From: Streptomyces sp. NBC_01454
Lineage (GTDB): Bacteria; Actinomycetota; Actinomycetes; Streptomycetales; Streptomycetaceae
DNA: 64,000 nt
Assembly (NCBI RefSeq): GCF_036227565.1
Contig: NZ_CP109460.1
Span: 7,502,001 to 7,566,000, forward strand
Reading direction: 5' to 3'
Each line of letters opens with the position of its first letter. Position 1 is the stretch's first letter. Of this stretch, positions 15,226 through 35,815 are shown one piece after another. The translations under genes and the position numbers were made by a program. The notes under the pieces were generated by a model. The model searched no databases. It was not told the origin of the DNA and was given only the letters and a program-made list of their open reading frames with translations.

Positions 15226-15236
15226 GGTGCGCAACC

Positions 15237-18200
15237 TTACTCGTCATCCGACGGCGCGGGGCTGTCAGGGGCGTCCGCCGGAGCCCGGCCCGCGGCGTGG
15301 TGGCGGGTGTCGTCCCCCAGGATCTCGCCACGCCGCCGCTTGAGGTCGTTGAGGTGGTTCCGCATTTCCCGCGAACCCGTGCCGTCGTCGGGGTGCGGCA
15401 GGGTGTGCGTCGTCGGCACCTTGCCGAAGACGCGGTACATCAGGGAGGCGCAGCCCTTCTGCGCACAGGGGGCGCGTTCCGTGTAGACCTCGGTGACCCG
15501 GATGCGCTGACCGTCGGGGAGTGTGGACTGCATGTGCTGCATGTATTCGACCGCGGCACGTTCGGAGTGCTTCGACTTTCCCGTCCAGGGCTGGTCGTCG
15601 ACCTTGGTGACATTTCCGCTGGTCCCGAAGCTGCGCGCCAGCATCACATATTCGGTGGAGCCCGGCTCTATGACATAGCGGAATGCCGCGTAGTTGGCGG
15701 ACGGCGCGAGGCCGAAGTTGTTCTGTCCCGAGTGCTGGTCGGCGGCGGAGCCGGGCACCGCGTACTGATGGAAGTAGTCGTGGTCCAGCCGCGCGCGCTC
15801 GACCATGCGTCCCAGATCGCTGTCGTCCCAGTCCTGCGGCTGGGAGTCGACCAGTTCCTGGCCTCGGGCCGCGGTGAACGGGGTGGTGTCCGGCTCGTCA
15901 CGAAGCCGGCCGTCATATTCGTCGCTGTCGCTGTCGCTGTCGTGGCTGTCGTGGTCGTTGTCGGGGTCGGAGGGCGGTTGGCGTTCGCCGTCCGGGTCGT
16001 GATCGTCGCGGTCGGCATCGGGCATGTCGACATCGGACGACTCCTCGGACGCATCCGCCTCGTCCCGCCTCGGCCGCTTGGTGGGGTCCCCGTCGTCGAT
16101 CTCCATGTCCTCGGGAGAACGCGCGCGCTTCTTCCCGTCCGATCCGGCGGGTTCCGCGGCCGGCCGGCGCTCGCCGTGGCCGTCCCGGTCGGGACCGGAG
16201 CCGTTGTCGTGGCGGGAGTCGTCGTGGCGTGCACCGTCCTGGACGGGGCGGCGGTGGGGATCGAGCGGGATGGCGTGGACGCCGTTGTCGCCGTCGTGGA
16301 GGGGTGTGTTGCTGCGCTGTCCGGTTTGGGCGTCGACGTAGGTGAGGGTGCCGTGGTGGTTGACGACGTTCCAGGCGTGGGCGCGGCCGTTGCGGTCCTG
16401 GGTGATGATGACGGCCTGGGAGCCGTGGCCGGAGTTGTGGAGGTCGTTTTCCAGGCGGTGGAAGGCGTCGCGGCCGTTGCCGTAGTCGTGGAAGCGGCTG
16501 CCGAGGGTGTTCTCGATGCGGTCGCGGCCGTTGGTCTCGCCGCGGTCGGAGGGGGTGCCGTCGGGGTTGAGGTCGGGGGTGCGGTGGGCGGCGGCGGTGG
16601 GGTTGCCGGAGTAGGTGTCGGCGGCGGCCAGCGCGGAGTCGACGCAGTTGTTGTTGCGGCCCGGCGCGTCGGGGCCGGGGTGGTTGATGGAGTCGAGCCA
16701 GTTGCCGTCGTCCGGGTCGGGGTGGCGCTGCGGCTCGCCGTTCTCGTCCCGGGGGATCGAGTCCTCGACCCGCTGCTGATGCTCGTCGGTGGGACCTTCG
16801 AGACCGCCCGGGTGCTCGCGGTTGCGGGTTTCGGAGGCGGGAGTGGGGTCGGACGTCCCGTCGGAATGCTGGTCCGTCGGGCCGTTGGATTCCTTGGGGT
16901 GATCGTTGCCGGCGCCCTCGTTGCCCGGGTGGTCGTTGCCCGGACGGCTGTTGCCCGGAGGGGTGTTGCCCGGAGGGTTGCTGTCCGGACGACCGTTGTC
17001 AGAGCGGTCGCTGTCAGGACCGTCGTGGGCCGGAGTGCCGTTGTGCGGGCGGTCGTTGGGCGGCTGGTTGGTGCCCGGACGGTTGGCGTCGGGGCGTGGC
17101 AGACGCGGATCCGGGCGCCCGTGCTGGGTGTCGGGACGTGGGGTGTAGGCGGGGCGGTCCTGGGTGCGCTGCGGCGGGATGTGCCGGCCGGGCCGGGAGC
17201 CGTCCGGGCGCTGGTGGGAGGAGCCGGAGCCCGAGCCGGGGCTCTGGGGTGTTCCGCCACGGGGCGGGGCGCCGGTGGGGGTGTGGCCACCGCCCTGGGT
17301 GGGCACGGTGGGAGCTCCCATGACCGGGGCGGTGCCTGGCGGGGTGTGCTGCGGCGACTGCGAGGAGCCGGGGGTGGCAGCGGGCTGATGAGTGTTACCG
17401 GGGTCCGCCGGGTGCTGGGTGGGCGGGGGCGCGGTCATGGTGTCGGCGGACTGGGTGGTGACGGTGGTGTCGTCGTCGCCGGCGTGCGGCGTGGGGTCGC
17501 CGGGGGAGGGATCGCGGTGCTGGACGGACGGACCGGAGGAGGGTGAGTGCTGCACCGGGGCGCCCTGGGAGGGCACGCTCACGTGCGGCGTTGCGGAACG
17601 CCCGCCGGTGCCGGCACCGGAGTTGTCCCCGTTGTGGGAGCCGGAGTCGGAGCCGGAGCCGTCTCCGCCCTGGGAGCCGCTGTGCGCGCTGTCGCCGTAG
17701 GGGGAGGTGTCGGTGTTGGTGGGCGGGTTACCGGCAACGGGGTCGGGGGAGGGCGACGGCTGCGACGGCTGCGACGACTGACCCGTTTCCTGGTGTGAAG
17801 TGCCCTCGGGTTTGCCGGAGTTGGACTGGTCGCCGAATGAATGGTCGGCGGCCGGACCGGGGTCGTGAGCCAGGCCGGAGTCGTGAGCCGGACCGGAGTC
17901 ATGAGCCGGTGACGAGTCGTGAGCGGGGGCCGGGTCGGGAGCCGATGCGGCGTCGGGGGTCGGCGCGGCCGGGGTGGGGTGCGTGCTGAAGGGCTCCGTG
18001 TCGGGGCGGGCGTGGTCCGGGGCGCCGTCGGCCGTCGGCTGGGTGCTCACCGGGTCGGGGCGTGCGGAGTCGGGTGTGTGGTCCGGCGTGGGGTGGGTGC
18101 CGACCGGGTCGGTGTCCGGACGTGTGGAGTCCGGATGTGCCGAGTCAGGTCGAGCGGAGTCCGGGGTGTTGTCAGGGGTGGGCTGGGTGCCCGCTGAGTC

Positions 18201-19625
18201 CGTGTCCGGGCGGGGATGGTCCGGGCCGGTGCCACCCGAGTCGGGCGTGGTCCCCGAGTCGGGAGCGGGCCCCGAGTGGGAGGCGGCCCCCGGGTCATGT
18301 GTGGTGCCGGTGTCGAGGCTGGTGCCGGAGTCCGTGGCCGACCCGTACGGGCTGTCATGGCCGCCCTGGTAGCCGGCGTCGAAAGGCGAACGCTGGTCCG
18401 GGGGCGGCAGCGGATGCGCGGAGGGAGAGCTGTGGCTGCCGTCCGTACCCGCGGTGGAGCCGTCGGGTGTGGTGGAGGTGTCGTTTCCGGAGCCGGTGTT
18501 CGCGCCGGAGTCGCTCAGGGGGCGGGGCACGTGCGACGAGCTGCCGGAGCCGCTGCTTCCGCCGCTACCGCTGCCGTCCCCCGAGCCGTGTCCACCGCCG
18601 CTGGAGTCTCCGGACCCGGACCCGGACCCGGACCCGGACCCGCTGTCGGTGCTGGACCCGCCACCGCTGGACCCACTCCCGGAACGGTCACCGCCCCCGG
18701 AGTTGCCCTCGCTCCCGGAGCTGCCGCCGTTCCCGGAGCTGCCCTCGCCGCCAGAGTTACCGGAGTCACCGGAGCCACTTGACTCACCAGAGCTGCTTGA
18801 CTCACTTGATTCACTCGACTCGCTGGAGCTCCCGCCGCTTCCCCCGCTGTCCTCGCCGCCGTGGTCACTCCCGCCGCGTCCGGCAGCGTGATCGAGACCG
18901 TTGTTGACGTGGTGGCCCGCCCGGGCCCCCGCGCCGTCACGCAGGGACTCGGCGAAGGTCTGGCCGGAGTTCTTCAGCGCGTCCGCACCGGCTTCGGCAC
19001 CGGCATGCGCGCTGCGCCCGACGTCGAAGCCGTTCTGCGCCCCGAAGTTCATGTTCACGCCCTGCGCGATGGCGTCGGAGGCCATGGCCTCCAGCGCGGA
19101 CACGGCGGGCTCCTTGACCGTCTCGACGATGGCCTCGACCAGGGCCTCGCGGGCTTCCTTCAGGATGCGGCGCACGATCAGCCGGGTGGCCTGGGTGGCG
19201 CCCGCCGCGGCGACCTCGGACAGGCCGAAGGTGAAGGGGGCCGCGGCCTGGGCGGCGATGATCTCCGCGGCGAGGATCGCGAGTTGGGCGATCACCGCGA
19301 CCTTCATCCCGACGATGACTCCGGAACCGGCGTCCAGAGCTAACGCGATGACCTCCGCGGCGGAACGGGCGTCGTCGAGGTAGCCGGAACCGTTGCCGGA
19401 GAACTTTCCCCAGGTCGCGTTGAAGCCGTCGATGCTGTCGCCGGAGTTGGCGGACAGCACATTGCCGGCGGCGGTGACGCCCTCGGACTGCAGCTGCTCC
19501 ACGGCGTGCGCGAACTCCCGCCAGGTGTCGGCGGATTCGCTCATCTTGTCCTCGTCGCCGGTTGGCCAGTCGTAGCCGAGCATTTCAAGGACCCACTCGA
19601 GCCAGTCCGGCAGCATGAGCGACAT
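15237..19625 (-). CDS. polymorphic toxin: papain-like plus deaminase domains
   Basis: A 1462-residue exported toxin. Residues 1-240 are helical and WXG100/LXG-like (MSESADTWREFAHAVEQL, then membrane-prone AVIAQLAILAAEIIAAQ), suggesting type VII export. Residues 240-960 are a low-complexity Ser/Gly, then Pro/Asp/Thr linker. A papain-like glutamine-deamidase-type domain follows with Cys994 (RNNNCVDSALAA), His1083 (GRAHAWNVVNHHG) and Asp1098 (YVDAQTG). The C-terminus is a zinc deaminase with His1353/Glu1355 (SKHSERAAV) and Cys1387/Cys1392 (APCAQKGCASL). I chose the ATG at 19625, with GGGGGATT upstream, over an in-frame start in the repeat region. Two effector domains in one protein are notable. 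The targets are unknown. Confidence 0.8.
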   Translation of the reverse strand: MSLMLPDWLEWVLEMLGYDWPTGDEDKMSESADTWREFAHAVEQLQSEGVTAAGNVLSANSGDSIDGFNATWGKFSGNGSGYLDDARSAAEVIALALDAGSGVIVGMKVAVIAQLAILAAEIIAAQAAAPFTFGLSEVAAAGATQATRLIVRRILKEAREALVEAIVETVKEPAVSALEAMASDAIAQGVNMNFGAQNGFDVGRSAHAGAEAGADALKNSGQTFAESLRDGAGARAGHHVNNGLDHAAGRGGSDHGGEDSGGSGGSSSESSESSESSSSGESSGSGDSGNSGGEGSSGNGGSSGSEGNSGGGDRSGSGSSGGGSSTDSGSGSGSGSGSGDSSGGGHGSGDGSGSGGSSGSGSSSHVPRPLSDSGANTGSGNDTSTTPDGSTAGTDGSHSSPSAHPLPPPDQRSPFDAGYQGGHDSPYGSATDSGTSLDTGTTHDPGAASHSGPAPDSGTTPDSGGTGPDHPRPDTDSAGTQPTPDNTPDSARPDSAHPDSTRPDTDPVGTHPTPDHTPDSARPDPVSTQPTADGAPDHARPDTEPFSTHPTPAAPTPDAASAPDPAPAHDSSPAHDSGPAHDSGLAHDPGPAADHSFGDQSNSGKPEGTSHQETGQSSQPSQPSPSPDPVAGNPPTNTDTSPYGDSAHSGSQGGDGSGSDSGSHNGDNSGAGTGGRSATPHVSVPSQGAPVQHSPSSGPSVQHRDPSPGDPTPHAGDDDTTVTTQSADTMTAPPPTQHPADPGNTHQPAATPGSSQSPQHTPPGTAPVMGAPTVPTQGGGHTPTGAPPRGGTPQSPGSGSGSSHQRPDGSRPGRHIPPQRTQDRPAYTPRPDTQHGRPDPRLPRPDANRPGTNQPPNDRPHNGTPAHDGPDSDRSDNGRPDSNPPGNTPPGNSRPGNDHPGNEGAGNDHPKESNGPTDQHSDGTSDPTPASETRNREHPGGLEGPTDEHQQRVEDSIPRDENGEPQRHPDPDDGNWLDSINHPGPDAPGRNNNCVDSALAAADTYSGNPTAAAHRTPDLNPDGTPSDRGETNGRDRIENTLGSRFHDYGNGRDAFHRLENDLHNSGHGSQAVIITQDRNGRAHAWNVVNHHGTLTYVDAQTGQRSNTPLHDGDNGVHAIPLDPHRRPVQDGARHDDSRHDNGSGPDRDGHGERRPAAEPAGSDGKKRARSPEDMEIDDGDPTKRPRRDEADASEESSDVDMPDADRDDHDPDGERQPPSDPDNDHDSHDSDSDSDEYDGRLRDEPDTTPFTAARGQELVDSQPQDWDDSDLGRMVERARLDHDYFHQYAVPGSAADQHSGQNNFGLAPSANYAAFRYVIEPGSTEYVMLARSFGTSGNVTKVDDQPWTGKSKHSERAAVEYMQHMQSTLPDGQRIRVTEVYTERAPCAQKGCASLMYRVFGKVPTTHTLPHPDDGTGSREMRNHLNDLKRRRGEILGDDTRHHAAGRAPADAPDSPAPSDDE
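17861..17925 (-). repeat. AHDSGP-type protein repeats in toxin linker
   Basis: Within the toxin linker, the heptad-like unit AHDSGP(x) recurs about four times with Ser, Leu or Pro variants. On DNA the unit GTCGTGAGCC recurs with small changes. It lies in the long flexible linker and probably acts as a spacer. Confidence 0.6.
17995..18235 (-). repeat. Pro/Asp/Thr pseudo-repeats in toxin linker
   Basis: The linker here contains degenerate copies of about 25-30 residues built on THPTPDHTPDSARPD with DTDPVG, DTEPFS and DTDSAG variants. They look like unequal-crossover products and extend the disordered arm that carries the toxic domains. Confidence 0.55.
18611..18640. repeat. hexanucleotide repeat (CGGACC)5
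   Basis: Five exact tandem copies of CGGACC, read on the coding strand as GGTCCG, encode (Gly-Ser)n inside the toxin linker. Unit-length changes would lengthen or shorten the linker without shifting the frame. Confidence 0.8.
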
Positions 19626-20207: not shown

Positions 20208-20221
20208 GTGTGACATATTAC
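20208..20221 (+). promoter_or_regulatory. GntR operator-like site A, hydroxyproline operon
   Basis: GTGTGACATATTAC lies directly in front of the first gene. It matches site B (23249-23262, other strand) in 13 of 14 positions, and the flanking CTGA is shared too. It contains GTGTGAC, a GT-N3-AC core like that of FadR-type GntR operators. It also overlaps a possible -10 (CATATT), consistent with repression by the linked GntR protein. Confidence 0.6.
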
Positions 20222-20225
20222 TGAC

Positions 20226-21398
20226 GTGCCCACGAGACACAGACGCCTTCTGGACGCTCCGGACGTGGTGATCGTCGGGGCCGGTGTGGTCGGCGCCGCC
20301 TGCGCCTTCTACGCCGGCCGTGCCGGTCTCTCCGTCGCCGTGGTCGACCGCGGACCCGTCGCGGGCGGCACCACCGGCGCCGGCGAGGGGAACCTGCTGG
20401 TCTCCGACAAGGAGCCGGGCCCGGAACTCGCCCTCGCGCTGCTCTCCACCGGTCTGTGGCGCGATCTGGCCGCCGAACTCCCGCCGGAGATCGAGTACGA
20501 GACGAAGGGCGGACTGGTCGTCGCCGCCGACGAGCCCGGTCTGACGTCCCTGCGTGCCTTCCGCGCGGCGCAGAGCGCAGAGGGGGTGGAGAGCACGGAC
20601 GTCCCGGGCGACCGGCTGCGGGACCTCGAACCCCACCTGGCCCCCGGCCTCGCCGGCGGCGTGCTCTATCCGCAGGACGCGCAGGTCCAGCCCGCGCTGG
20701 CCGCCGCCCACCTGCTGCGTGCCTCCGGCGCCCGACTGCATCTGGGGGCCGAGGTCACGGCCGTGCTGCGCGGGCCCGGCGGAGCGGTCCGCGGCGTCCG
20801 TACGCCGCGCGGCGACCTCCTCGCCCCCGCCGTCGTGAATGCCACCGGCACCTGGGCCGGCCGGCTGGCCTCGCTCGCGGGGGTGACCGTCCCTGTCCTG
20901 CCGCGCCGCGGATATGTGCTGGTCACCGAGGCGTTGCCGCGTGTCGTGCGCCGCAAGGTGTATGCCGCGGACTATGTCGCCGACGTGGCCAGCGGCTCGG
21001 CCGCGCTCCAGACCTCCGCCGTCGTCGAGGGCACCCCGGCAGGCCCGGTGCTCATCGGCGCCAGCCGCGAACGCGTCGGCTTCGCCCGCACGCTCTCGGC
21101 CGGCGTACTGCGCCGGCTCGCCGCCCAGGCGGCGGCCCTGTTCCCCGTCCTGGCGGAGGTCCGGGTGATCCGTACGTACCAGGGCTTCCGTCCCTACCTT
21201 CCGGACCACCTCCCGGCGATCGGCCCCGACCCGCGCGCCCCGGGCCTGCTGCACGCCTGCGGCCACGAGGGCGCGGGCATCGGCCTCGCCCCGGCCACGG
21301 GCCTGCTGATCGCCGCCGCGCTGACGGACACCGCCGGCCCGCTGGACGCCCGGCCGTTCCGCCCGGACCGCTTCACCGAAGGGACGGAGTCGGTATGA
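20226..21398 (+). CDS. FAD-dependent D-hydroxyproline dehydrogenase, DAO-type subunit
   Basis: A 390-residue D-amino-acid-oxidase-family flavoprotein. The dinucleotide motif is VVIVGAGVVGAACAFYAG. It has the DAO-type GGTTGAGEGNLLVSDKEPGPEL, ATGTWAGRLASLAG and the C-terminal GFRPYLPDHLPAIGPD..HACGHEGAGIGLAPATG. With the downstream ferredoxin-like and FAD/NAD proteins it forms the three-part dehydrogenase that oxidises cis-4-hydroxy-D-proline to pyrroline-4-hydroxy-2-carboxylate. The GTG start lies only 4 bases after operator site A and has no Shine-Dalgarno sequence, so the mRNA is probably leaderless. A sarcosine- or opine-oxidase-like function is the alternative; the neighbours favour hydroxyproline. 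Confidence 0.82.
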   Translation: MPTRHRRLLDAPDVVIVGAGVVGAACAFYAGRAGLSVAVVDRGPVAGGTTGAGEGNLLVSDKEPGPELALALLSTGLWRDLAAELPPEIEYETKGGLVVAADEPGLTSLRAFRAAQSAEGVESTDVPGDRLRDLEPHLAPGLAGGVLYPQDAQVQPALAAAHLLRASGARLHLGAEVTAVLRGPGGAVRGVRTPRGDLLAPAVVNATGTWAGRLASLAGVTVPVLPRRGYVLVTEALPRVVRRKVYAADYVADVASGSAALQTSAVVEGTPAGPVLIGASRERVGFARTLSAGVLRRLAAQAAALFPVLAEVRVIRTYQGFRPYLPDHLPAIGPDPRAPGLLHACGHEGAGIGLAPATGLLIAAALTDTAGPLDARPFRPDRFTEGTESV

Positions 21399-21480
21399 GT
21401 CGGCATGAACCGAGCCGCGCCATACGCTGCCCCGCCGCATCCCCACCCCGCCGCCGTCACCCCGCCCACCGGAGCCCGGC

Positions 21481-21837
21481 ATGAACCGACCCCGACCTCG
21501 ACCCCGGCCCCAGCCCCGACGCCCCCGCCCCACCCCCGCCGCTCTCGTACGGGCCGCGCCAGGGCCGGCCTTCGAGATCACGCTCGACGGGCGGGCGCTG
21601 TCGGCGCTGCCCGGGCAGAGCATCGCGGCCGCGCTCTGGGCCGCGGGGGTGCTCTCCTGGCGGACCACGCGCCGGGGCGGCCGGGCGCGGGGTGCGTTCT
21701 GCGGGATCGGCTCCTGTTTCGACTGCCTGGCGACCGTCAACGGCACCCCCAATCAACGGGCTTGTCTGGTGCCGGCCCGGCCGGGGGACGCGATCACCAC
21801 CCAGGAGGGACACGGGCGTGCCGATCTCACCGTCTGA
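21481..21837 (+). CDS. [2Fe-2S] subunit of D-hydroxyproline dehydrogenase
   Basis: A 118-residue small iron-sulfur protein. After an Arg/Pro-rich 20-residue N-terminus, it has a plant-type ferredoxin-like domain with cysteines spaced C-x4-C-x2-C-x11-C in FCGIGSCFDCLATVNGTPNQRAC. This is the pattern of the small subunit (HcnA/SoxA-N-like) that sits between the two flavoproteins in amine dehydrogenases. GGAGC precedes the ATG. Its 3' end overlaps the next gene by 20 bases, so the two are translationally linked. It is thought to relay electrons from the DAO-type flavin to the larger FAD/NAD-type subunit. Confidence 0.82.
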   Translation: MNRPRPRPRPQPRRPRPTPAALVRAAPGPAFEITLDGRALSALPGQSIAAALWAAGVLSWRTTRRGGRARGAFCGIGSCFDCLATVNGTPNQRACLVPARPGDAITTQEGHGRADLTV

Positions 21838-23212
21838 CACCCATGATCTCGCCGTCATCGGCGCGGGGCCGGCCGGGCTCGCCGCTGCCGTCACCGCCGC
21901 CGACCTCGGGCTGACCGTCGCGCTGGTCGATGCCGCCGCCCGGCCGGGCGGACAGTTCTACCGGCAGCCGGCCGCCGGGCTGGGCGCGGCCCGCCCGCAG
22001 GCCCTGCACCACTCCTGGGGCGCGTTCGCCCGGCGCGCCGGACGGCTGGACGCGCACCGGGCGGCCGGCCGGATCCACCACTACACCGAGCACCACGTCT
22101 GGGCCGTCACCCGGGAGGCGGCGCACTGGGCCGTGCACGCGGCGACCGGGCCCGACGGGGCCGGGGCGCGGGCCGAGGTGGCCGCGCACAAAGTGCTCCT
22201 CGCCACCGGCGCCTACGAGCGCCAACTGCCCTTCCCCGGCTGGACCGTGCCCGGCGTCGTGGGCGCAGGCGGTGCGCAGGCCATGCTGAAGGCGGGGCTG
22301 GTGGTGCCGGGGCGGCGGATCGTGGTCGCGGGCAGCGGGCCGCTGCTGCTCGCCGTCGCCGGGTCGCTGGCCGCTGCCGGGGCCAGGGTGCCGGTGGTCG
22401 TCGAGGCGGGTGGCTACGCCGGATACGCCCGGGTGCCGCGCACGCTCGCCGCCAACCCGCGCAAGCTCGCGGAAGGGGCCGGCCACGCCGTCACCCTGCG
22501 CCGGTACGGCGTCCGCCTGCGCACCCACAGTGCGATCACCGCCGTGCACGGCACCGACCGGGTCGAGGCCGTCACGCTGACCCGGCTCGACCGGGACTGG
22601 CGGCCGGTCGCCGGGACCGGGCTGCGCATCCCGTGCGACGCGCTCGCCGTCGGGCACGGACTCGTACCGCAGCTGGACCTGGCGACCGCGCTGGGCTGTG
22701 CGACCCGCCGCACTCCCGACGGCACCGCCGCGCTGGTGCTCGACGGCCGGCAGCGGACCTCGGTCGACGGAGTCTGGGCCGCCGGCGAGACCGGGGGCGT
22801 GGGAGGTGTCGAACTCGCGCTGACCGAGGGCGAGGTGGCGGCGTACGACATCGCGCGGCGGGCCGTCGGCGGGGTGCTGCGGCGGCGCCGGGACCGTTTG
22901 CGGCGGTTCGCCGGGGTCATGGCCGCCGCCCATGCGCCGCGGGCCGGCTGGTCCGACTGGCTGGGCGCGGACACCGAGGTCTGCCGCTGCGAGGAGGTCA
23001 CGGCCGGACAAATCCGGGAGGCCGTCGGCGGACTCGGGGCCCGCGACACCCGTACCGTCAAACTGCTCACCCGCGCCGGAATGGGCTGGTGCCAGAGCCG
23101 GGTGTGCGGTCCCGCCGTGGCGCACCTCGCGGGGGAGAGCGAGCCCGCGGCCGGCCGCCGGCTGCTCGCCTGTCCTGTCACGCTGGGGGAACTCGCCCGC
23201 GAAGACCGGTAG
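21818..23212 (+). CDS. FAD/NAD-type subunit of D-hydroxyproline dehydrogenase
   Basis: A 464-residue pyridine-nucleotide-disulfide-type flavoprotein. The motifs are AVIGAGPAGLAAAVTAADLGL at the N-terminus, LLATGAYERQLPFPGWTVPGV, a second nucleotide site VVAGSGPLLLAVAGSLAAAG and GVWAAGETGGVGG. The C-terminal region adds four cysteines in VCRCEEVT and GWCQSRVCGP, a BFD-like [2Fe-2S] site. This matches the HcnB/SoxA-type large subunit of D-hydroxyproline and opine dehydrogenases. The GTG at 21818 follows GGAGGGA by 8 bases and lies inside the ferredoxin gene. Confidence 0.82.
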   Translation: MPISPSDTHDLAVIGAGPAGLAAAVTAADLGLTVALVDAAARPGGQFYRQPAAGLGAARPQALHHSWGAFARRAGRLDAHRAAGRIHHYTEHHVWAVTREAAHWAVHAATGPDGAGARAEVAAHKVLLATGAYERQLPFPGWTVPGVVGAGGAQAMLKAGLVVPGRRIVVAGSGPLLLAVAGSLAAAGARVPVVVEAGGYAGYARVPRTLAANPRKLAEGAGHAVTLRRYGVRLRTHSAITAVHGTDRVEAVTLTRLDRDWRPVAGTGLRIPCDALAVGHGLVPQLDLATALGCATRRTPDGTAALVLDGRQRTSVDGVWAAGETGGVGGVELALTEGEVAAYDIARRAVGGVLRRRRDRLRRFAGVMAAAHAPRAGWSDWLGADTEVCRCEEVTAGQIREAVGGLGARDTRTVKLLTRAGMGWCQSRVCGPAVAHLAGESEPAAGRRLLACPVTLGELAREDR

Positions 23213-23248
23213 TTCGTGCCGACGGCCTTGGCAATCCGCTACAGCTCA

Positions 23249-23262
23249 GTAAAATGTCACAC
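23249..23262 (-). promoter_or_regulatory. GntR operator-like site B
   Basis: Read on the minus strand the site is GTGTGACATTTTAC, differing from site A by one base, with CTGA also shared on the flank. It lies 21 bases before the deaminase start. It could control an internal promoter for the deaminase and epimerase genes or strengthen repression of the whole operon. Confidence 0.6.
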
Positions 23263-23282
23263 CTCATAGAAGGAGACAGCAC

Positions 23283-24218
23283 ATGGTCCTCCGTACCCGT
23301 CCCTGGCACGGCATCATGGTCGCCACCACCCTCCCCTTCCGCCCCTCCCACTCCCCTCGCCCCTCCCGCCTCTCCCGTGACGAGCTCTCCGTCGACCACG
23401 ACGCCTACGCCGCCCAGGTCGCCCGGCTGCTCGCGGCCGGCTGTGACGGCGTCGTCCCCAACGGCTCCCTCGGCGAGTACCAGACGCTGACCGACGACGA
23501 GCGCGCCCGTGTCGTGCGGACCGCCGTTGCGGCCGCCGGCGGTGCGGGCGAGCGGGTGATGCCGGGCGTCTCCGCGTACGACAGTGCCGCCGCGTGCCGC
23601 TGGGCCGAGCAGGCCGCCGAGGCGGGCGCCGGCTCCGTCCTGCTGCTGCCGCCCAACGCCTACCGTGCCGATGCGGCAGCGGTCCGCGCCCACTTCGCCG
23701 AGGTGGCCGCGGTCGGTCTGCCCGTCGTCGCCTACAACAACCCCTTCGACACCAAGGTCGACCTCACCCCGCGCCTCCTCGCCGAGCTGCACGCCGACGG
23801 CAGCATCGTCGCCGTCAAGGAATTCAGCGGAGATGTGCGCAGGGCGTACGAGATCGCCGAAGTCGCCCCGGAACTCGACCTGTTGATCGGGGCCGACGAC
23901 GTCCTGCTCGAACTGGCCCTCGCCGGCGCCGTCGGCTGGGTCGCGGGCTATCCCAACGCGCTGCCGGAGGCCTGCGGCGCCCTCTACCGGGCCGCCGTCG
24001 CCCAGGACCTCGACACCGCGCTGCCGCTCTACCGCGCCCTGCACCCGCTGCTGCGCTGGGACTCCAAGCCCGAATTCGTGCAGGCGATCAAGCTCTCGAT
24101 GGACCTCGCCGGACACCGCGGCGGACCGACCCGCCCGCCCCGCTTCCCGCTGCCCGCCGGGCAGTCGGCCCAGCTGCGCGCCGCCACCGAGAAGCTCCTC
24201 GCCGACGGCCACCACTGA
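23283..24218 (+). CDS. pyrroline-4-hydroxy-2-carboxylate deaminase (DHDPS family)
   Basis: A 311-residue (beta/alpha)8 lyase. The Schiff-base lysine is in IVAVKEFSGDVRRA, the substrate loop is NGSLGEYQTLTDDER, and LLLPPNAY and VVAYNNPF follow the dihydrodipicolinate-synthase pattern. In hydroxyproline catabolism this family removes ammonia and water from pyrroline-4-hydroxy-2-carboxylate to form 2-oxoglutarate semialdehyde. AAGGAG precedes the ATG. It sits between the dehydrogenase subunits and the epimerase, which makes this function much more likely than lysine biosynthesis. Confidence 0.88.
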   Translation: MVLRTRPWHGIMVATTLPFRPSHSPRPSRLSRDELSVDHDAYAAQVARLLAAGCDGVVPNGSLGEYQTLTDDERARVVRTAVAAAGGAGERVMPGVSAYDSAAACRWAEQAAEAGAGSVLLLPPNAYRADAAAVRAHFAEVAAVGLPVVAYNNPFDTKVDLTPRLLAELHADGSIVAVKEFSGDVRRAYEIAEVAPELDLLIGADDVLLELALAGAVGWVAGYPNALPEACGALYRAAVAQDLDTALPLYRALHPLLRWDSKPEFVQAIKLSMDLAGHRGGPTRPPRFPLPAGQSAQLRAATEKLLADGHH

Positions 24219-24229
24219 GAGGACCCCCC

Positions 24230-25231
24230 ATGCGCACCCGCCATGTCTTCCACGCCGTCGACTCCCACACCGAGGGCATGCCCACCCGCGTCATCACCGG
24301 TGGCGTCGGCACCCTCCCCGGCGCCACCATGGCCGAGCGCCGGCTGCACCTGGCCGAACACCGCGACGACATCCGGACGCTGCTGATGTACGAGCCGCGC
24401 GGCCATGCCGCCATGAGCGGGGCGATACTCCAGCCGCCGGCCCGTCCCGACGCCGACTGGGGTGTGCTGTTCATCGAGGTGTCCGGCTATCTGCCGATGT
24501 GCGGACACGGCACGATCGGGGTGGCCACCGTCCTCGTCGAGACCGGCATGGTGGAGGTGTGCGAGCCGGTGACCACGGTGCGCCTCGACACCCCGGCCGG
24601 ACTCGTCACCGCCGAGGTACAGGTCACGGACGGGGCGGCGACGGCCGTCACCCTCACCAACGTGCCCGCGTTCTGCGCCGGACTCGACCGCAAGGTCACC
24701 GTCCCCGGCTACGGCACGCTCAGCTATGACCTCGCCTACGGCGGCAACTTCTACGCCATCCTGCCGCTGGACAGCGTCGGGCTGCCCTTCGACCGGGACC
24801 GCAAGAACGACATCCTGGCCGCCGGACTCGCCCTCATGGACGCCGTGAACACCACCGACCGGCCGGTCCATCCCGAGGACGAGCGGATCGGCGGCCTCAA
24901 GCACGTCTACTTCGCCGCACCGGGATCCAGCGCCACCCGCTCCCGGCACGCGATGGCCATCCATCCCGGCTGGTTCGACCGCTCACCCTGCGGCACCGGC
25001 ACCTCCGCGCGGATGGCGCAGCTGCATGCCCGCGGGGACCTCTTCCTGGGCCAGGACTTCGTCAACGAGTCCTTCATCGGGACGGAGTTCACCGGCCGGC
25101 TCGTGGCACGGACCACGGTCGGCGGGCGGCCGGCCGTCGTCCCCACCGTCACCGGACGGGCCTGGGTGACCGGCACCGCGCAGTACTTCCTCGATCCGTC
25201 CGACCCGTTCCCCGCGGGGTTCCTGCTCTGA
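24230..25231 (+). CDS. 4-hydroxyproline 2-epimerase (proline racemase family)
   Basis: A 333-residue member of the proline racemase family. The first catalytic cysteine is in PMCGHGTIGVATVL (about residue 90). The second is in FDRSPCGTGTSARMA (about residue 254). HTEGMPTRVITGG at the N-terminus and YGGNFYAILPLDS near the middle are typical. Two cysteines, rather than Cys plus Thr, are what is expected of an epimerase or racemase rather than a dehydratase. It inverts C2 of trans-4-hydroxy-L-proline to give cis-4-hydroxy-D-proline, the substrate of the dehydrogenase encoded upstream. It starts 11 bases after the deaminase stop. Confidence 0.9.
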   Translation: MRTRHVFHAVDSHTEGMPTRVITGGVGTLPGATMAERRLHLAEHRDDIRTLLMYEPRGHAAMSGAILQPPARPDADWGVLFIEVSGYLPMCGHGTIGVATVLVETGMVEVCEPVTTVRLDTPAGLVTAEVQVTDGAATAVTLTNVPAFCAGLDRKVTVPGYGTLSYDLAYGGNFYAILPLDSVGLPFDRDRKNDILAAGLALMDAVNTTDRPVHPEDERIGGLKHVYFAAPGSSATRSRHAMAIHPGWFDRSPCGTGTSARMAQLHARGDLFLGQDFVNESFIGTEFTGRLVARTTVGGRPAVVPTVTGRAWVTGTAQYFLDPSDPFPAGFLL

Positions 25232-25284
25232 GTGCCGCCCGGCCGGGGCGGCGGACCGGCCGCCGCCACCAGGCAGTTCGCGCA

Positions 25285-25298
25285 ACGTGACATTGTAC
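25285..25298 (+). promoter_or_regulatory. GntR operator-like site C, before the regulator
   Basis: ACGTGACATTGTAC matches the site A/B pattern in 11 of 14 positions and keeps GTGACAT and TAC. It lies 32 bases before the GntR start, suggesting autoregulation. Confidence 0.45.
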
Positions 25299-25330
25299 GC
25301 TGGCACTCCGCAGCAACTCGGAGGACCACG

Positions 25331-26047
25331 ATGGGTGAACTCAAGCACCGCAGCCTGATCACCGCGCAGGAGCGACTCCGCGATCAGGTCGCCCATCAGC
25401 TGCGTGCGGCCCTGATAGCGGGCGAACTCCGCCCGGGATCGGTCTACTCGGCCCCGGGCCTCGCCGCGGACTTCGGGGTCTCCGCCACCCCGGTGCGTGA
25501 GGCGATGCTCGATCTGGCCCGGGAGGGCCTGGTCGAACCGGTGCGCAACAAGGGCTTCCGGATCACCGAGGTGAGCGAGCGCGACCTCGATCAGTACACC
25601 GAGATCCGTGCGCTGATCGAGGTCCCGGTCATCGGCCAGGTCACCCGCACCGCCGGCCGGGACCAGCTCGAAGCCCTCCGCCCGGCCGCCCTGGAGATCG
25701 TCGCCGCCGCCCGCGCCCACGACCTGATCGGCTATCTGGAGGCCGACCGCCGCTTCCATCTCGCGCTGCTCGGCCTCAGCGGCAACGAGCGCCTCGTCGA
25801 GACGGTCGGCGAACTGCGCAAACGCTCCCGCCTCTACGGCCTCACCCGCCTCGACGAGCGCGACCAGCTGCTGCCCTCCGCCGAGGAGCACGGGGAACTC
25901 CTCGACGTGATGCTGACCGGCGATGCCGAGGCGGCCGAGGCCTGTATGGCCCGCCACCTCGGCCATGTCCGCTCACTGTGGGCACGGGCACGCGAGGAAC
26001 CGCTGCTGCCGCGCCCTCAGGGCGAGCGGCGCGTCCGCCAGGGCTGA
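25331..26047 (+). CDS. GntR/FCD-family regulator of hydroxyproline catabolism
   Basis: A 238-residue transcription factor. Residues 10-80 are the winged helix, with LAADFGVSATPVREAMLDLAREGLV as the recognition region. The FCD effector domain follows, with the metal/ligand segment EADRRFHLALLGLSGNERL and a C-terminal MARHLGHVRSLW helix. FCD-GntR proteins commonly sense carboxylates. The gene is last in the hydroxyproline unit, 99 bases after the epimerase, with its own operator-like site. It is convergent with the aminopeptidase gene (24-base gap). GGAGG precedes the ATG. It probably represses the operon and perhaps the collagenase promoter. Confidence 0.85.
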   Translation: MGELKHRSLITAQERLRDQVAHQLRAALIAGELRPGSVYSAPGLAADFGVSATPVREAMLDLAREGLVEPVRNKGFRITEVSERDLDQYTEIRALIEVPVIGQVTRTAGRDQLEALRPAALEIVAAARAHDLIGYLEADRRFHLALLGLSGNERLVETVGELRKRSRLYGLTRLDERDQLLPSAEEHGELLDVMLTGDAEAAEACMARHLGHVRSLWARAREEPLLPRPQGERRVRQG

Positions 26048-26071
26048 CCGGGGCGGGGCGCGGCCCCCGGG

Positions 26072-27457
26072 TCAGACGCTTCCGGTCAGCAGCCCGTCCA
26101 TCCACTCCTCCACCCCGTCGGCGGTGCGCGGCAGTGCGCCCGACATCAGCCGGGCACCGTCCGCCGTGATCACCAGATCGTCCTCGATACGGACCCCGAT
26201 GCCGCGCAGTTCCCGCGGCAGGGTCTCGTCGTCGGGCTGGAGATAGAGCCCCGGTTCGACCGTGAGGACCTGCCCCTCCGTCAGGACACCGTCGAGATAC
26301 TGCTCGGCGCGGGCCCGGCCGCAGTCGTGGACATCGAGCCCGAGCATATGGCCGGAACTGCACAGGGTGTAACGCCGGTACAGGCCGCTGTCGGCCGCGA
26401 GCGCCTGTGCCGCCGGGATGCGCAGCACCCCCCATTCGGCCAGGCCCTCGGCCAGGACGCCCGAGCAGGCCCGGTGGAAGTCGCGGAAGCTGGCGCCCGG
26501 CTTGAGGGCGGCGATCCCCGCGTCCTGCGCGGTGAGCACCAGCTCGTACACCCGGCGCTGCACGGGGGAGAAGCGCCCGGAGAGCGGCAGGGTGCGGGTG
26601 ACATCGGCGGTGTACAGCGCGTCGGTCTCCACCCCCGCGTCGAGCAGCAGCAACTGCTCCGGGTCGAGCGGGCCGTCGTTGCGGATCCAGTGGAGCACGC
26701 AGGCGTGGGCGCCGGCGGCCGCGATGGTCTCGTAGCCGGTGCCGTTGCCCTCGGCGCGGGCGCGCAGCTGGAAGACGCCCTCGATCCAGCGTTCGCCGCG
26801 CGGGTGGCGCAGGGCTGCGGGGAGGGACCGTACGACGTCCTCGAAGCCGGTGACGGTGTGGTCGACGGCCTGCTGTAGCTGCGCCACCTCCCAGGGGTCC
26901 TTCTCCAGCCGCAACTCGCTCAGCACGGTGGCGAGTTCGGCGTCGTGGGCCGCGTTCCGGGCGGAGCCGTGACGGGCCAGGTCGTCCAGATGCGCACAGC
27001 GCAGGCCGGTGAGGCGTTCGGCCTCGGCCAGATCGGGGCGGCGGCCCACCCAGAACTCGCCGTACTTGCGGTCCCGGTAGAACGCGCCGCCGGCGTCCCG
27101 CGGGGGCCGCGGCCGCAGATGGAGCACCGCCTCGCCGTCCGGTTCCAGCACCAGGACATGGCCCGGCTGGTCCTCGCCGGTCAGCCCGGTCAGCCAGGCG
27201 TACGCGCTGTGCGGCCGGAAGCGGTGGTCGCAGTCGTGGGAGCGGACCCGCAACTCCCCGGCGGGCACGAGCAGTCGCTCGCCGGGGAAGCGCGCGGCGA
27301 GGCGGGCCCGGCGGCCGGCGAAGTGCGCGAAGCCGGGGACGCGGGTGCCGTCCGGGGGCGGGGGCGTGGCCCATCCGCCGGTCATGAAGTCGGCGAGGGC
27401 GCCCGAAACCGGCAAGTCGTGGCTGCCGGTGTGGAGTTGGGTGTGTTCCAAGGTCAT
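26072..27457 (-). CDS. Xaa-Pro aminopeptidase (M24 family)
   Basis: A 461-residue metallopeptidase of the PepP/prolidase family. The two-metal ligands are visible in order: Asp in LLLLDAGVE, Asp in LYTADVTRT, His in CSSGHMLGLDVHD, Glu in VLTVEPGLY and Glu in GIGVRIEDDLV. The N-terminal 170 residues form the creatinase-like N domain. It removes residues N-terminal to proline (or hydroxyproline) in peptides. There is no signal peptide, so it acts on imported peptides. GGAGG precedes the ATG. It is divergent from the collagenase with a shared promoter region that contains operator-like site D. Confidence 0.9.
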   Translation of the reverse strand: MTLEHTQLHTGSHDLPVSGALADFMTGGWATPPPPDGTRVPGFAHFAGRRARLAARFPGERLLVPAGELRVRSHDCDHRFRPHSAYAWLTGLTGEDQPGHVLVLEPDGEAVLHLRPRPPRDAGGAFYRDRKYGEFWVGRRPDLAEAERLTGLRCAHLDDLARHGSARNAAHDAELATVLSELRLEKDPWEVAQLQQAVDHTVTGFEDVVRSLPAALRHPRGERWIEGVFQLRARAEGNGTGYETIAAAGAHACVLHWIRNDGPLDPEQLLLLDAGVETDALYTADVTRTLPLSGRFSPVQRRVYELVLTAQDAGIAALKPGASFRDFHRACSGVLAEGLAEWGVLRIPAAQALAADSGLYRRYTLCSSGHMLGLDVHDCGRARAEQYLDGVLTEGQVLTVEPGLYLQPDDETLPRELRGIGVRIEDDLVITADGARLMSGALPRTADGVEEWMDGLLTGSV

Positions 27458-27517
27458 GTGGACACCTCCGGGAAAGAAAGTTCCTGAAGCCTTGTCAGTG
27501 CAATTTCACATTACTAT

Positions 27518-27531
27518 GTTATGGGTCACAC
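27518..27531 (-). promoter_or_regulatory. GntR operator-like site D, collagenase/aminopeptidase promoter
   Basis: On the minus strand this reads GTGTGACCCATAAC; it keeps the GTGTGAC core and the final AC, matching site B in 10 of 14 positions. The region 27500-27525 is markedly AT-rich for this genome (TTTCACATTACTATGTTATG) and probably contains both divergent promoters. The match is weaker than at sites A and B, so control by the same regulator is a hypothesis. Confidence 0.4.
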
Positions 27532-27595
27532 CTTGTGGAGTGAAGGCCACGGCCTCGACCTCCACCCAACCCCCCACCCCCTTCCGGAGGTTCAG

Positions 27596-29941
27596 GTGCC
27601 CCCTTCGCGTCTGCCGCGCAGCTTCCTGTTGGCCGCGAGCCTCGCGGCGACCCTCGCCCTGCCCACCGTCCAGCCGGCCCGGGCCGCCGCACCCCACCCG
27701 TCCGTCGTCCCCGCACGGTCGCACCAGGCGCAGCCGGCCGCACCCCGGCCGTCGGTGGCCTCCGCCAACCCCTTCGACCAGGTCCAACGCCTGGCCAGAA
27801 CACCCGAGTTCTTCGCCGCGCCCGCGCCGGCGCCCCGCTCCCTCGTCGGCAAGGGCGGCATCCCGGGACCGCAGACCAAGCCGCCCACCGCGCCGCACCG
27901 GGGGAGATCCGCGGTCGCCCCCTGCACCCTCGACGGCATCACCGGCCTGAGCCCCGAGCAGTTCGCGGACTTCCTCGCCGACCCGGCCGTCACCGCCGAC
28001 GACTGCCTGCGCAGCCTCCTGTGGACCTGGGACCCCCGGCTGATCCCCGTCATGTCCGACGCCCACGTCCAGGCCGTGGCACACCGCATCAGCGGCCTGG
28101 CCGCCGCCCACGACGGCAAGAACACCAGCCATCTGTACGAGATGTTCACGTATCTGCACGCGGTGGCCTACCAGGACTTCTCGCACGACGAGATCGACAC
28201 CACCGACGCCCCCACCGTCGACGCCGTACGGCGCGCGGTCGACGCCTTCGGCGGCGCGGCCCACACCTTCGACGTCACCCGCACCAACGCCGACACCCTG
28301 CGCGAAGCCCTGTACGCCGCCAGCGCCCCGGGGCTGCGGCAGCATCAACTCGACCTGATCCAGCGGGTCCTGGCCACCATGGACCCGGCGCACACCGCCA
28401 CCCAGAAGGACCAGTCCTGGGGCAACGCCGCCCTCGCCGCGCTCTCCGTGAACTACCTGGGGGTCTACCCCGGCAACAAGGACACCGCGTTCCAGTACGC
28501 GGCCGCCACCGACCCCGGATACCGGGCCGCCTTCAAGGCCTTCGCCCAGTACACCCACCTCAAGGACACGCCCAACGCCTGGGTCGTCCGCGATGCGCTC
28601 GGGGAGTACGGCCGCTTCGGTGAGATCGCCTCCCTCAAGCGGGCCATCATCGCCGACCTCGGCACGCTCCTCGGCACCACCGTCCAGAACTTCGGCGACG
28701 GCAGCGAGCCCTGGGCCAAGGTCGCGAGCTGGCTGACCTACTTCAACGCCTGCCAGCCGTACCACGTGTGCAAGGAGGACATCGAAAAGCGGATCTTCCC
28801 GCACACGTACACCTACGACAACGGCGGCATCAAGGTCCGCACCGCCCTCGACCGCTCCGTCGTCGACCAGCTCTACTATGCGTCCAAGCAGGTCAAGGCG
28901 CAGTTCCACCGGGTGATCGGCACCGAGACGCCGCTGGCCGGCGACCCCAACACCACGCTCACCATCGTGCTGTACGCCTCACGCCACGACTACGAGGTCT
29001 ACCACCCGCTGCTCACCGGCATGGGCACCAACAACGGCGGCGTCTACATAGAGCAGGGCGCGACCTTCTACACCTACCAGCGCCGCGTCCCCCAGGACTC
29101 CACCCTCACCCTCGAAGAACTCTTCCGGCACGAGTACGTCCACTACCTCAACGGCCGCTTCGCCGTACCCGGCTTCTTCGGTGAGGGCCCCTGGTACGAG
29201 GGCGACCGCACCACCGCCATGGACGAGGGCAGCGCCGAGTTCTTCGACGGCTCGACCCGCGACCAGGGCATCGCCGTGCGCAAGTCCCTCGTCCGCGACA
29301 TCATCGCGGACACCTCCGGCGGCACCCCCCGCATGACCATCGACCAGATGCTGCACGCGACCTACGACAAGGACGGCTTCAGGTTCTACTCCTACGCCGG
29401 GACGTTCTTCGAGTTCCTGTGGCGCGCGCACCCGGCGCTGCTCCAGGAGATGTACCGGCATCTGCGGGACAACGACCCGGCCGCGTTCGACGCCTGGCGC
29501 AACCGCATGGGAGCCGACGCGGGACTCCAGCAGGAGTACAACGCCTTCCTCGACACCCAGATCGCCCACCTCGACGACCTCTATGTGCCGAACACGACGT
29601 TCACCCCGAACGCCTCGCTGAAGTTCGCCACCCCCGACGAGGTCCGCAGCGCCTTCGCCGCCGCCACCGCCAACACACCCACCTGCAAGGACGAGGGCGA
29701 CCCCGGCATGGGCCGCTTCCTGTGCACCGGCCGGATCACCGCCAACCTCAACAACTCCGGCAGCTCCGACCAGGTCTTCAAGGACATGGCCGGCACCGTC
29801 GACTACTTCATCCTCGAACGCACCAAGCCCGCCGGGAACAACTTCACCGACATGAACTGCTTCTTCGGGCCCACCGACATCTGGTCCTCGGGCCGGGCCG
29901 GCAGCGCGGACTTCAGCTGTGAGGGTCCGCTGCGACGCTGA
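27596..29941 (+). CDS. secreted collagenase, peptidase family M9
   Basis: A 781-residue Vibrio-type M9 collagenase. The start at GTG 27596 follows CGGAGG and gives a good Sec signal peptide (SRLPRSFLLAASLAATLALP, cleavage near ARA-AA). The zinc motif is His512-Glu513-x2-His516 in LFRHEYVHYLNGRF, with the third ligand in MDEGSAEFF (about residue 544). The M9N activator region covers roughly residues 90-400. A C-terminal segment of about 90 residues with paired cysteines replaces the usual PKD/PPC collagen-binding modules. It degrades native collagen to peptides rich in proline and hydroxyproline, linking it functionally to the adjacent genes. Confidence 0.92.
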   Translation: MPPSRLPRSFLLAASLAATLALPTVQPARAAAPHPSVVPARSHQAQPAAPRPSVASANPFDQVQRLARTPEFFAAPAPAPRSLVGKGGIPGPQTKPPTAPHRGRSAVAPCTLDGITGLSPEQFADFLADPAVTADDCLRSLLWTWDPRLIPVMSDAHVQAVAHRISGLAAAHDGKNTSHLYEMFTYLHAVAYQDFSHDEIDTTDAPTVDAVRRAVDAFGGAAHTFDVTRTNADTLREALYAASAPGLRQHQLDLIQRVLATMDPAHTATQKDQSWGNAALAALSVNYLGVYPGNKDTAFQYAAATDPGYRAAFKAFAQYTHLKDTPNAWVVRDALGEYGRFGEIASLKRAIIADLGTLLGTTVQNFGDGSEPWAKVASWLTYFNACQPYHVCKEDIEKRIFPHTYTYDNGGIKVRTALDRSVVDQLYYASKQVKAQFHRVIGTETPLAGDPNTTLTIVLYASRHDYEVYHPLLTGMGTNNGGVYIEQGATFYTYQRRVPQDSTLTLEELFRHEYVHYLNGRFAVPGFFGEGPWYEGDRTTAMDEGSAEFFDGSTRDQGIAVRKSLVRDIIADTSGGTPRMTIDQMLHATYDKDGFRFYSYAGTFFEFLWRAHPALLQEMYRHLRDNDPAAFDAWRNRMGADAGLQQEYNAFLDTQIAHLDDLYVPNTTFTPNASLKFATPDEVRSAFAAATANTPTCKDEGDPGMGRFLCTGRITANLNNSGSSDQVFKDMAGTVDYFILERTKPAGNNFTDMNCFFGPTDIWSSGRAGSADFSCEGPLRR

Positions 29942-33878: not shown

Positions 33879-33933
33879 CACGCACCCCCTGCATCTGCCC
33901 CGACTGTGGCATGCCGCGCACGGCCGCCAGCAG

Positions 33934-33947
33934 GGGCCGAACGGCCC
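33934..33947. promoter_or_regulatory. perfect palindrome in divergent stress-gene promoter
   Basis: GGGCCGAACGGCCC is a 14-bp inverted repeat with a 2-base centre. It lies between the divergent Rv1733c-like and universal stress protein genes. A looser partial copy, GGGGGCCATTCGGG, follows at 33954. DosR/OsdR-type response regulators bind GGGAC/GGCCC-flanked palindromes, so it is a candidate hypoxia-regulator site. I recall that consensus only approximately. Confidence 0.4.
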
Positions 33948-34078
33948 TCGACGGGGGCCATTCGGGAAGCGGCGCACCGGGCGCCGCAGCCCGGCCGGAC
34001 CCTGCACACCGCGGAGCACGGTGCGACCGTGGCAGTACGCACAACGTCTTCGCCGATGCCGGGAAGGAAGTGGCGGCG

Positions 34079-34954
34079 ATGGGGCATCCGCTGGTCGTGG
34101 GGCTCGACGGATCCGACTCCGCCTTCCGGTCACTGGACTGGGCGGTGGACGAGGCGGTCCGCCACGGGCTCCCGCTGCGCATCGTGCACGCCTCCAGCTG
34201 GGAGCACTACGAGGGCGCCGCGCCCGCACAGGACCCGGAACGCCCCGGCGAGCAGATCTTCGAGGAGGCCGTGGTGGCCTCCGCCGCCGAGCACGCCCGC
34301 CTGCGGAACGCGGAGCTCAAGATCACCGCCGAGGTGCTGGCCGGCGATCCGGTCACCACCCTGCTCAACGAGGCACTCCACGCGTCGGCGCTGGTCCTGG
34401 GCTCACGGGGGCACGGCGAGTTCACCGGACTGCTGCTCGGGTCGGTCGGCCTGGCGGTCGCGGCGCGCGCCAAGTGCCCGGTGATCGTGGTGCGCGGTGA
34501 CGCCGCCGGACTGGCGGGCACGCACGGGCGCATCCTCCTCGGGGTCGACGACCCGGCCGCGGCCGCCACGGCCGTCCGCTTCGCCTTCCGCGAGGCCGAG
34601 GCCCGCCACTGCACCCTCCTGGCCGTCTGCGCCTGGCCGCTCCCCGTCCACGGGACCGACGACGCCTCGCTGCCCGCCGGGAGCCCCCGGCACGCCCAGG
34701 AGGAGCGGGCGGCGGAGCTGCTGGACGAGGCACTGGCGGAAGCGGCCAGGGAGCATCCGGCGGTGCGGGTGCGCCGCGCCACCGTCGAGGGACCGGCCCA
34801 CAAGGTGCTGGTGCACCGCGCCGCCGCCGCGGATCTGCTGGTGGTGGGGGTACAGCGCCGCCACGGCCACTTCGGGGTCCAGCCCGGCCGGGTCGCGCAC
34901 CACGCGCTGTGTCATGCCGAGTGCCCCGTGGCGGTCGTACCCCAGCACCCGTGA
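34079..34954 (+). CDS. universal stress protein, tandem UspA domains
   Basis: A 291-residue protein with two Usp domains. The first begins PLVVGLDGSDSAFRSLDWAV and has the ATP-binding motif LGSRGHGEFTGLLLGSVG. The second begins ILLGVDDPAAAATAVRFAF and has a degenerate nucleotide loop (GVQRRHGHFGVQPGRVAHH). Such tandem proteins are abundant in actinobacterial dormancy regulons. The ATG lies at 34079 with GGAAGTGG upstream. The gene is divergent from the Rv1733c-like gene and convergent with the polyphosphate kinase gene. Confidence 0.88.
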   Translation: MGHPLVVGLDGSDSAFRSLDWAVDEAVRHGLPLRIVHASSWEHYEGAAPAQDPERPGEQIFEEAVVASAAEHARLRNAELKITAEVLAGDPVTTLLNEALHASALVLGSRGHGEFTGLLLGSVGLAVAARAKCPVIVVRGDAAGLAGTHGRILLGVDDPAAAATAVRFAFREAEARHCTLLAVCAWPLPVHGTDDASLPAGSPRHAQEERAAELLDEALAEAAREHPAVRVRRATVEGPAHKVLVHRAAAADLLVVGVQRRHGHFGVQPGRVAHHALCHAECPVAVVPQHP

Positions 34955-34964
34955 CGCCCGCGCC

Positions 34965-35783: not shown

Positions 35784-35815
35784 GCCACGACGTTACGGGA
35801 AATGCCCCCAAGGAC

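Follow-up and report, generated by a model that had tools for sequence, protein, structure and literature searches.

The window analysed here, a 64,000-nucleotide stretch of the soil bacterium Streptomyces sp. NBC_01454 (contig NZ_CP109460.1, positions 7,502,001 to 7,566,000), carries at 20.2-29.9 kb a gene for a secreted M9 collagenase beside a hydroxyproline catabolic operon and a GntR-type repressor gene. This locus is very probably a version of the Streptomyces HypR regulon for collagen use in which the genes are clustered; its regulation in this strain is predicted. The core of the circuit was published in 2019 for S. coelicolor, and the link between collagenase and hydroxyproline is not new in principle. 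What is new is that a clostridial-like collagenase gene is part of the cluster, along with the predicted operators of the aminopeptidase and deaminase genes and the genus-wide extent of the system over three collagenase classes. Among the matches listed in our search, which left most subscription journals outside, no other work joined collagenase and hydroxyproline catabolism in Streptomyces.

A previous interpretation of this DNA from its letters alone (the sequence-only reading) had proposed a single collagen-to-hydroxyproline circuit, which is still the best reading in light of the published S. coelicolor regulon (PMC6608401), the conserved predicted operators, and the co-occurrence of M9 and epimerase genes (86/87 genomes). 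The joint arrangement of collagenase and hydroxyproline catabolism that it had considered ecologically informative is real in its clustered form, but the regulatory link was already known from S. coelicolor.

Gene content of the locus and identity of its repressor

In S. coelicolor A3(2), HypR is a repressor of the GntR/FCD type that acts on the hydroxyproline operon SCO6289-6293, on hypR itself (SCO6294), on SCO5281, and on the M9 collagenase gene SCO5912, which lies elsewhere on the chromosome; the HypR footprint is TACAATGTCAC and the motif CTNTGC(A/C)ATGTCAC (PMC6608401). The window encodes a 238-residue regulator (25331-26047, + strand; PF00392 and PF07729) with a GntR winged helix-turn-helix and an FCD domain, as in HypR. 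All 14 HypR residues listed in that paper as contacting DNA, zinc, or ligand were identical in this regulator at an offset of +1, and the exact footprint sequence TACAATGTCAC was found before its gene (25287-25297, - strand), matching the autoregulatory site. Since these residues and the footprint match S. coelicolor HypR, the regulon is one that is already known. The regulator is, by these matches, the orthologue of HypR (SCO6294), with DNA binding and repression predicted.

The operon opens with the FAD (flavin adenine dinucleotide) subunit of D-hydroxyproline dehydrogenase, the DAO subunit (20226-21398, + strand, GTG start; PF01266, 226 bits), whose place and order match SCO6289 as described in PMC6608401. 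It is followed by the 118-residue 2Fe-2S subunit (21481-21837, +; PF13510 Fer2_4, 90 bits; Cys74, 79, 82, and 95) and the subunit with Pyr_redox_2 and Fer2_BFD domains (21818-23212, +; PF07992, 98 bits; PF04324, 44.5 bits). We infer that the true start of the latter lies near 21818, its open reading frame opening at 21692. Next come the genes for pyrroline-4-hydroxy-2-carboxylate deaminase of the DHDPS family (23283-24218, +; PF00701, 133 bits), positioned as SCO6292, and trans-4-hydroxy-L-proline 2-epimerase of the proline racemase/4-hydroxyproline epimerase family (24230-25231, +; PF05544, 431 bits). According to the domain searches, the three dehydrogenase subunits and the deaminase are present in order. 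Beyond the repressor gene, an aminopeptidase P-like M24 peptidase gene (26072-27457, -; AMP_N and M24 domains; PF05195, 53 bits; PF00557, 157 bits) diverges from the collagenase gene (27596-29941, +; M9_N and M9 domains; PF08453, 47 bits; PF01752, 159 bits). The order DAO-Fer2-PyrR-DHD-EPI-GntR-PepP-M9 was found again in S. kronopolitis (L032), with proteins 91-98% identical. The analysis thereby recovered everything that the sequence-only reading had placed within 10 kb (an M9 collagenase with a signal peptide, a Xaa-Pro aminopeptidase, the epimerase, a three-part dehydrogenase, the deaminase, and a GntR regulator), with the M24 enzyme being aminopeptidase P-like only.

The window shares with the S. 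coelicolor regulon the operon order, a repressor with the 14 listed residues, the footprint before hypR, and an M9 target (PMC6608401). The epimerase-dehydrogenase-deaminase route is likewise that of the Pseudomonas aeruginosa lhp and Sinorhizobium meliloti hyp clusters, the latter also having a GntR repressor, whereas the P. aeruginosa lhp regulator and the S. meliloti hyp dehydrogenase differ from those of the window; the text of PMC6608401 cited here describes no collagenase in either cluster.

The collagenase and its relatives

The collagenase gene most likely starts at the GTG at 27596 behind GGAGGTTCAG rather than at the ATG at 27521, which gives a predicted protein of 781 residues. A GTG stands at the matching place in all nine other full-length relatives, and GGAGGTTCAG is kept before it in five of the nine (L032, L034, L035, L040, and L041). 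The protein begins with a Sec-type signal peptide, VPPSRLPRSFLLAASLAATLALPTVQPARA, as read by eye, and has an HEXXH motif (HEYVH, residues 512-516) with Glu548 as the candidate third ligand. It scored 199.5 bits against ColH and 95.5 bits against the Grimontia/Vibrio type, placing it closest to clostridial ColH/ColG; the NCBIfam equivalog cut-off for ColA (Leptospira), 1550, was not reached (346 bits). The closest named relative found was that of S. kronopolitis (95% identical). A structure model gave 17 fold matches under an E value of 0.001, all of them collagenases with ColG/ColH first, and these matches are only supportive because the model is poor (mean predicted local distance difference test score of 62). 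By sequence, the enzyme is an intact secreted M9 collagenase, for which cleavage of triple-helical collagen is predicted only.

Pfam scores divided 109 M9 genes into 38 of class A, 29 of class B, and 42 of class C; the limits of 375 and 300 bits are our own choice, and five matches under the Pfam cut-off were left out (G140, G141, and the second matches of G007, G104, and G085). Class C is the clostridial-like class, to which the window enzyme belongs, class A is Vibrio-like, and class B forms a third class. The window enzyme shares the M9_N and M9 layout with the Vibrio/Grimontia-type collagenases, but its score preference is the reverse of that of the class A representative L008 (388 bits to the Grimontia/Vibrio type vs 53 bits to ColG). 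It resembles clostridial ColG/ColH in the catalytic domain, its best match, but is a Streptomyces protein in which Pfam detected no PKD/PPC or other accessory domain. The class A representatives carry PKD/PPC domains. The S. coelicolor collagenase SCO5912, which carries PKD and PPC domains, is encoded away from the operon (PMC6608401), whereas the window has a clostridial-like M9 enzyme inside the cluster; SCO5912 probably belongs to class A, as judged by this description rather than by sequence.

Predicted HypR sites in the window and the host genome

The predicted collagenase promoter reads TTGTCA-N17-TATGTT (27492-27520, + strand) and holds in its spacer a HypR-like site, TGCAATTTCAC, with one mismatch (27499-27509). 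We take TTGTCA and TATGTT, separated by the 17-base pair (bp) spacer, to be the -35 and -10 elements from the familiar consensus. The block TTGTCA-GTGCAATTTCACATTAC-TATGTT is highly conserved before class C collagenase genes, whether linked or not, and its spacer site may serve as a marker for finding HypR-controlled collagenases. The window collagenase gene shares its promoter region with the aminopeptidase P-like gene, and aminopeptidase is unmentioned in the main text of PMC6608401. A further site, TAAAATGTCAC, lies between the dehydrogenase and deaminase genes (23250-23260, +; one mismatch) and suggests a second, internal promoter; no such site before the deaminase gene is given in Table 1 of PMC6608401. 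The operon itself has a HypR-like site, TAATATGTCAC, 5 bp before its GTG (20210-20220, - strand), a variant likewise found near the beginning of the DAO gene in L032, L040, L060, L042-L045, and L048-L053.

A scan of the window found four sites, where 1.45 were expected; the one at 2427 does not belong to the locus. In the host genome (G000, 9.46 Mb), TRCMATKTCAC had 11 matches, namely six in 23S ribosomal RNA (rRNA) genes, two in the locus, and three elsewhere. The last three were rejected as extra HypR targets: two lie inside predicted open reading frames and the third is 415 bp upstream of a gene on the opposite strand. A second pattern, TRCMATGTSAM, yielded a single further match (TGCAATGTGAC at 8241143); it falls within a small predicted open reading frame and points to no clear target. 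Because six of the 11 genome matches sit in 23S rRNA genes, bare motif matches are weak evidence, and predicted sites that are conserved at orthologous positions carry more weight. Each of the six 23S rRNA genes seen (L149 and L151-L155) contains the 11-mer TGCAATTTCAC, a trap for genome-wide motif scans.

Conservation of the sites across Streptomyces

For the conservation counts, a site was defined as TRCMATGTSAC with at most one mismatch, located from -400 to +60 of the start. Allowing K at position 7 (TRCMATKTSAC) was a widening made after class C had been seen, and the counts use the earlier rule. The upstream sample covered 20 of the 29 class B and 20 of the 24 unlinked class A loci, as well as 24 linked class C loci, with the window as the 25th. 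Three loci had no upstream sequence (L091, L120, and L125), and three with an over-long upstream window were counted as misses (L095, L121, and L033); two members of the linked class A set (L071 and L077) are linked to a paralogous racemase only.

Sites were found before 22/24 linked and 14/16 unlinked class C genes, 12/14 linked and 13/18 unlinked class A genes, 18/20 class B genes, and 8/10 class C genes in named genomes, with 419/5400 for random windows. In a hold-out set of 40 genomes outside rule-making, the counts were 18/20 for class C, 8/15 for class A, and 5/5 for class B, with 269/4000 (6.7%) for random windows; the epimerase gene lay within about 9 kb of the M9 gene in 14/20, 7/15, and 0/5 cases, respectively. 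Within the clusters, sites preceded gntR (37/40), the aminopeptidase gene (23/23 in linked and named loci), the DAO gene (20/36), and the deaminase gene (16/38), while the epimerase (2/40) and Pyr_redox subunit (0/38) genes served as internal negatives and random windows gave 288/4400. Overall, the aminopeptidase gene had a site in 30/35 loci with an M24 homologue. Most of these sites lie in a region shared with a collagenase gene, and TGCAATTTCAC is kept at the aminopeptidase gene in six loci where the collagenase gene is 6-11 kb away (L055, L057, L059, L066, L069, and L079).

The sequence around the common core differs among the three M9 classes, and the published form TGCAATGTCAC stands at the spacer position in the class C copies L063, L086, and L087. 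These observations, together with the presence of only three exact TRCMATKTCAC matches in 9.46 Mb beyond the rRNA genes and the locus, make it quite unlikely that the conserved TGCAATTTCAC block is the site of another regulator or simply a conserved promoter, as might be suspected from its being one base off the published HypR sites and from its occurrence in six 23S rRNA genes, which makes the word itself unspecific.

Co-occurrence and linkage of collagenase and epimerase genes

The comparative genomics suggested by the sequence-only reading bore out the co-occurrence. Among 150 Streptomyces genomes, an epimerase gene (≥60% identity) was present in 124 and an M9 gene scoring above the cut-off in 87; 86 had both, so that 86/87 M9 genomes carry the epimerase (Fisher p = 2e-10, relatedness ignored). 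The host genome has a single M9 gene. An epimerase gene lay within 20 kb of 37/109 M9 genes in 36 genomes (A, 12/38; B, 0/29; C, 25/42). When only M9 genes on a contig shared with the epimerase gene were considered, the linked fractions were 12/29, 0/14, and 25/31, respectively; some M9 genes may only look unlinked because contigs are short.

In a FastTree phylogeny, the 45 class C rows formed a single clade, with linked copies interspersed among unlinked ones. At least 11 linkage changes were needed for linked class C, nine of them forced by well-supported branches when L034 was left out; no epimerase was seen for this locus, and counting it as linked gives 10 forced changes. Class B needed two changes on the M9 tree. 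In many class C loci, the collagenase gene stands directly ahead of the operon and is codirectional with it, and the aminopeptidase gene is divergent (L042-L045, L048-L053, and L064). The window layout recurred in L032 and, without the aminopeptidase gene, in L040 and L060, and a class A collagenase fills the collagenase slot of the same gene order in L074, L076, and L212.

A scattered distribution in relatives had been named as an observation that would speak against one circuit. Such scatter was partly seen, with only 37/109 M9 genes within 20 kb, but the one-circuit reading survives it because most scattered copies examined keep the site (C, 14/16; A, 13/18; B, 18/20). Operon and collagenase could also be neighbours by chance or through general clustering of peptide catabolism, the collagenase answering other signals such as starvation or development. 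The many collagenase genes distant from the operon (0/29 linked in class B, 17/42 beyond 20 kb in class C) and the many linkage changes on the tree would fit this explanation, but 37/109 within 20 kb compares with roughly 0.5% expected from genome size by our own arithmetic, and the 86/87 co-occurrence and the HypR-like site at most scattered copies also argue against it, so that we regard it as very improbable.

The hydroxyproline enzymes and the proposed circuit

Both catalytic cysteines of the epimerase are present (Cys91 and Cys254). Hydroxyproline epimerases have been distinguished from proline racemases by Ser/Val at R1 and His at R2 rather than Phe and Cys/Leu (PMC1964878). In an alignment with proline racemase 7pb3, Ser63 (R1) stood opposite Phe and His225 (R2, our own reading) opposite Leu; on this alignment, the enzyme is in the hydroxyproline-epimerase state at the two specificity positions compared. 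Many relatives have, in or beside the cluster, another gene of the proline-racemase family whose product is 36-43% identical to the epimerase (L042-L053, L058, L064, L066, L068, L069, L071, L072, and L077). Its assignment as a trans-3-hydroxyproline dehydratase was rejected; the one copy aligned (L044) has a Cys-Cys pair, with Tyr at R1.

In the circuit that we propose, HypR would occupy its sites when hydroxyproline is lacking, at the collagenase gene between the -35 and -10 elements, and thereby block transcription, and a hydroxyproline-derived signal would lift this repression. The collagenase would cut collagen extracellularly, the resulting peptides would be imported by an oligopeptide transporter, and the M24 enzyme would trim residues preceding proline or hydroxyproline from them. 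The freed trans-4-hydroxy-L-proline would then be degraded to alpha-ketoglutarate semialdehyde via the epimerase, the D-hydroxyproline dehydrogenase, and the deaminase. In S. coelicolor, the hypR and SCO6289 promoters are induced by L-hydroxyproline, and a strain that has lost the epimerase gene no longer grows on it (PMC6608401).

Several observations weigh against this circuit. HypR binding in vitro was altered by neither L- nor D-hydroxyproline (PMC6608401), which leaves the proposed inducing signal tentative. The operon's own site is weak, having two mismatches to TRCMATKTSAC. Four or more sites were reached in 4/100 shuffles of the window, making the excess modest. Sites were absent from 7/15 class A collagenase genes in the hold-out set and from five M24 homologues (L117-L119, L124, and L136; 53-73% identical), and conservation within a class is by itself no proof of HypR binding because there are many reasons why promoters of orthologous genes stay conserved. 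The M24 peptidase did not reach the NCBIfam equivalog cut-off for aminopeptidase P (PRK10879; 184.9 bits vs 465); since its AMP_N and M24 domains were recognized but the equivalog score was not attained, we name it aminopeptidase P-like only. Aminopeptidases P are its closest solved structures. None of the 24 aldehyde dehydrogenase matches in the genome, candidates for the alpha-ketoglutarate semialdehyde dehydrogenase of the last step, lies inside the window, and an NCBIfam search of 10 of them with a strict threshold (1e-170) named none as this enzyme; its gene is likewise not near the operon in S. coelicolor (PMC6608401). No oligopeptide transporter was identified in the window's cluster. 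An insert between cluster genes in L055, L046, L066, and L057 has a family-5 peptide-binding protein, accompanied by peptide permeases in L055 and L046 and by an ATPase in L055; some relatives therefore encode peptide uptake inside the cluster.

Hydroxyproline also occurs in plant and algal walls (PMC6608401). The operon might serve mainly plant cell-wall or free hydroxyproline, with the collagenase cutting other proteins and co-regulation being incidental, and this would agree with the 38/150 genomes that have the epimerase without an over-cut-off M9 gene and with the absence of a detected PKD/PPC domain in the window collagenase, unlike the class A representatives. That two M9 types are repeatedly paired with the operon, and that a promoter region is shared with the aminopeptidase P-like gene, instead favours collagen or gelatin peptides, and we consider a plant or free source as the main one unlikely.

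On balance, we lean toward a wider form of the collagen circuit, in which HypR would control collagenase genus-wide. Two or three lineages of the enzyme that are only distantly related, clostridial-like and Vibrio-like, would each have been brought under this control, with clustering repeatedly gained and lost and the same slot open to either type. The regulon would also comprise the aminopeptidase P-like enzyme, joined in some species by an oligopeptide transporter, and would form a full collagen-to-alpha-ketoglutarate programme wider than that of S. coelicolor. A regulon of one species would thus become a testable genus-wide rule, in which hydroxyproline, a breakdown product of collagen, controls the enzymes that attack collagen. 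As new members it predicts the collagenases of classes B and C, the gene for the aminopeptidase P-like enzyme, and possibly that for the peptide transporter. Copies bearing the same site occur both linked and unlinked, which allows one to ask which came first, regulation or clustering.

Neighbouring genes

A polymorphic toxin/immunity locus adjoins the cluster at window positions 11410-19625. It encodes a large WXG100-like protein that carries a glutamine-deamidase (Gln_amidase) domain, and after it come SUKH-4 immunity-like proteins as well as deaminase domains of the XOO_2897 type. Genes for universal stress proteins, PPK2, and a nicotinate phosphoribosyltransferase-like protein adjoin one another at 33911-38570, and an amino acid permease gene (AA_permease, 425 bits) is located at 49082-50644 on the - strand, about 19 kb from the cluster.

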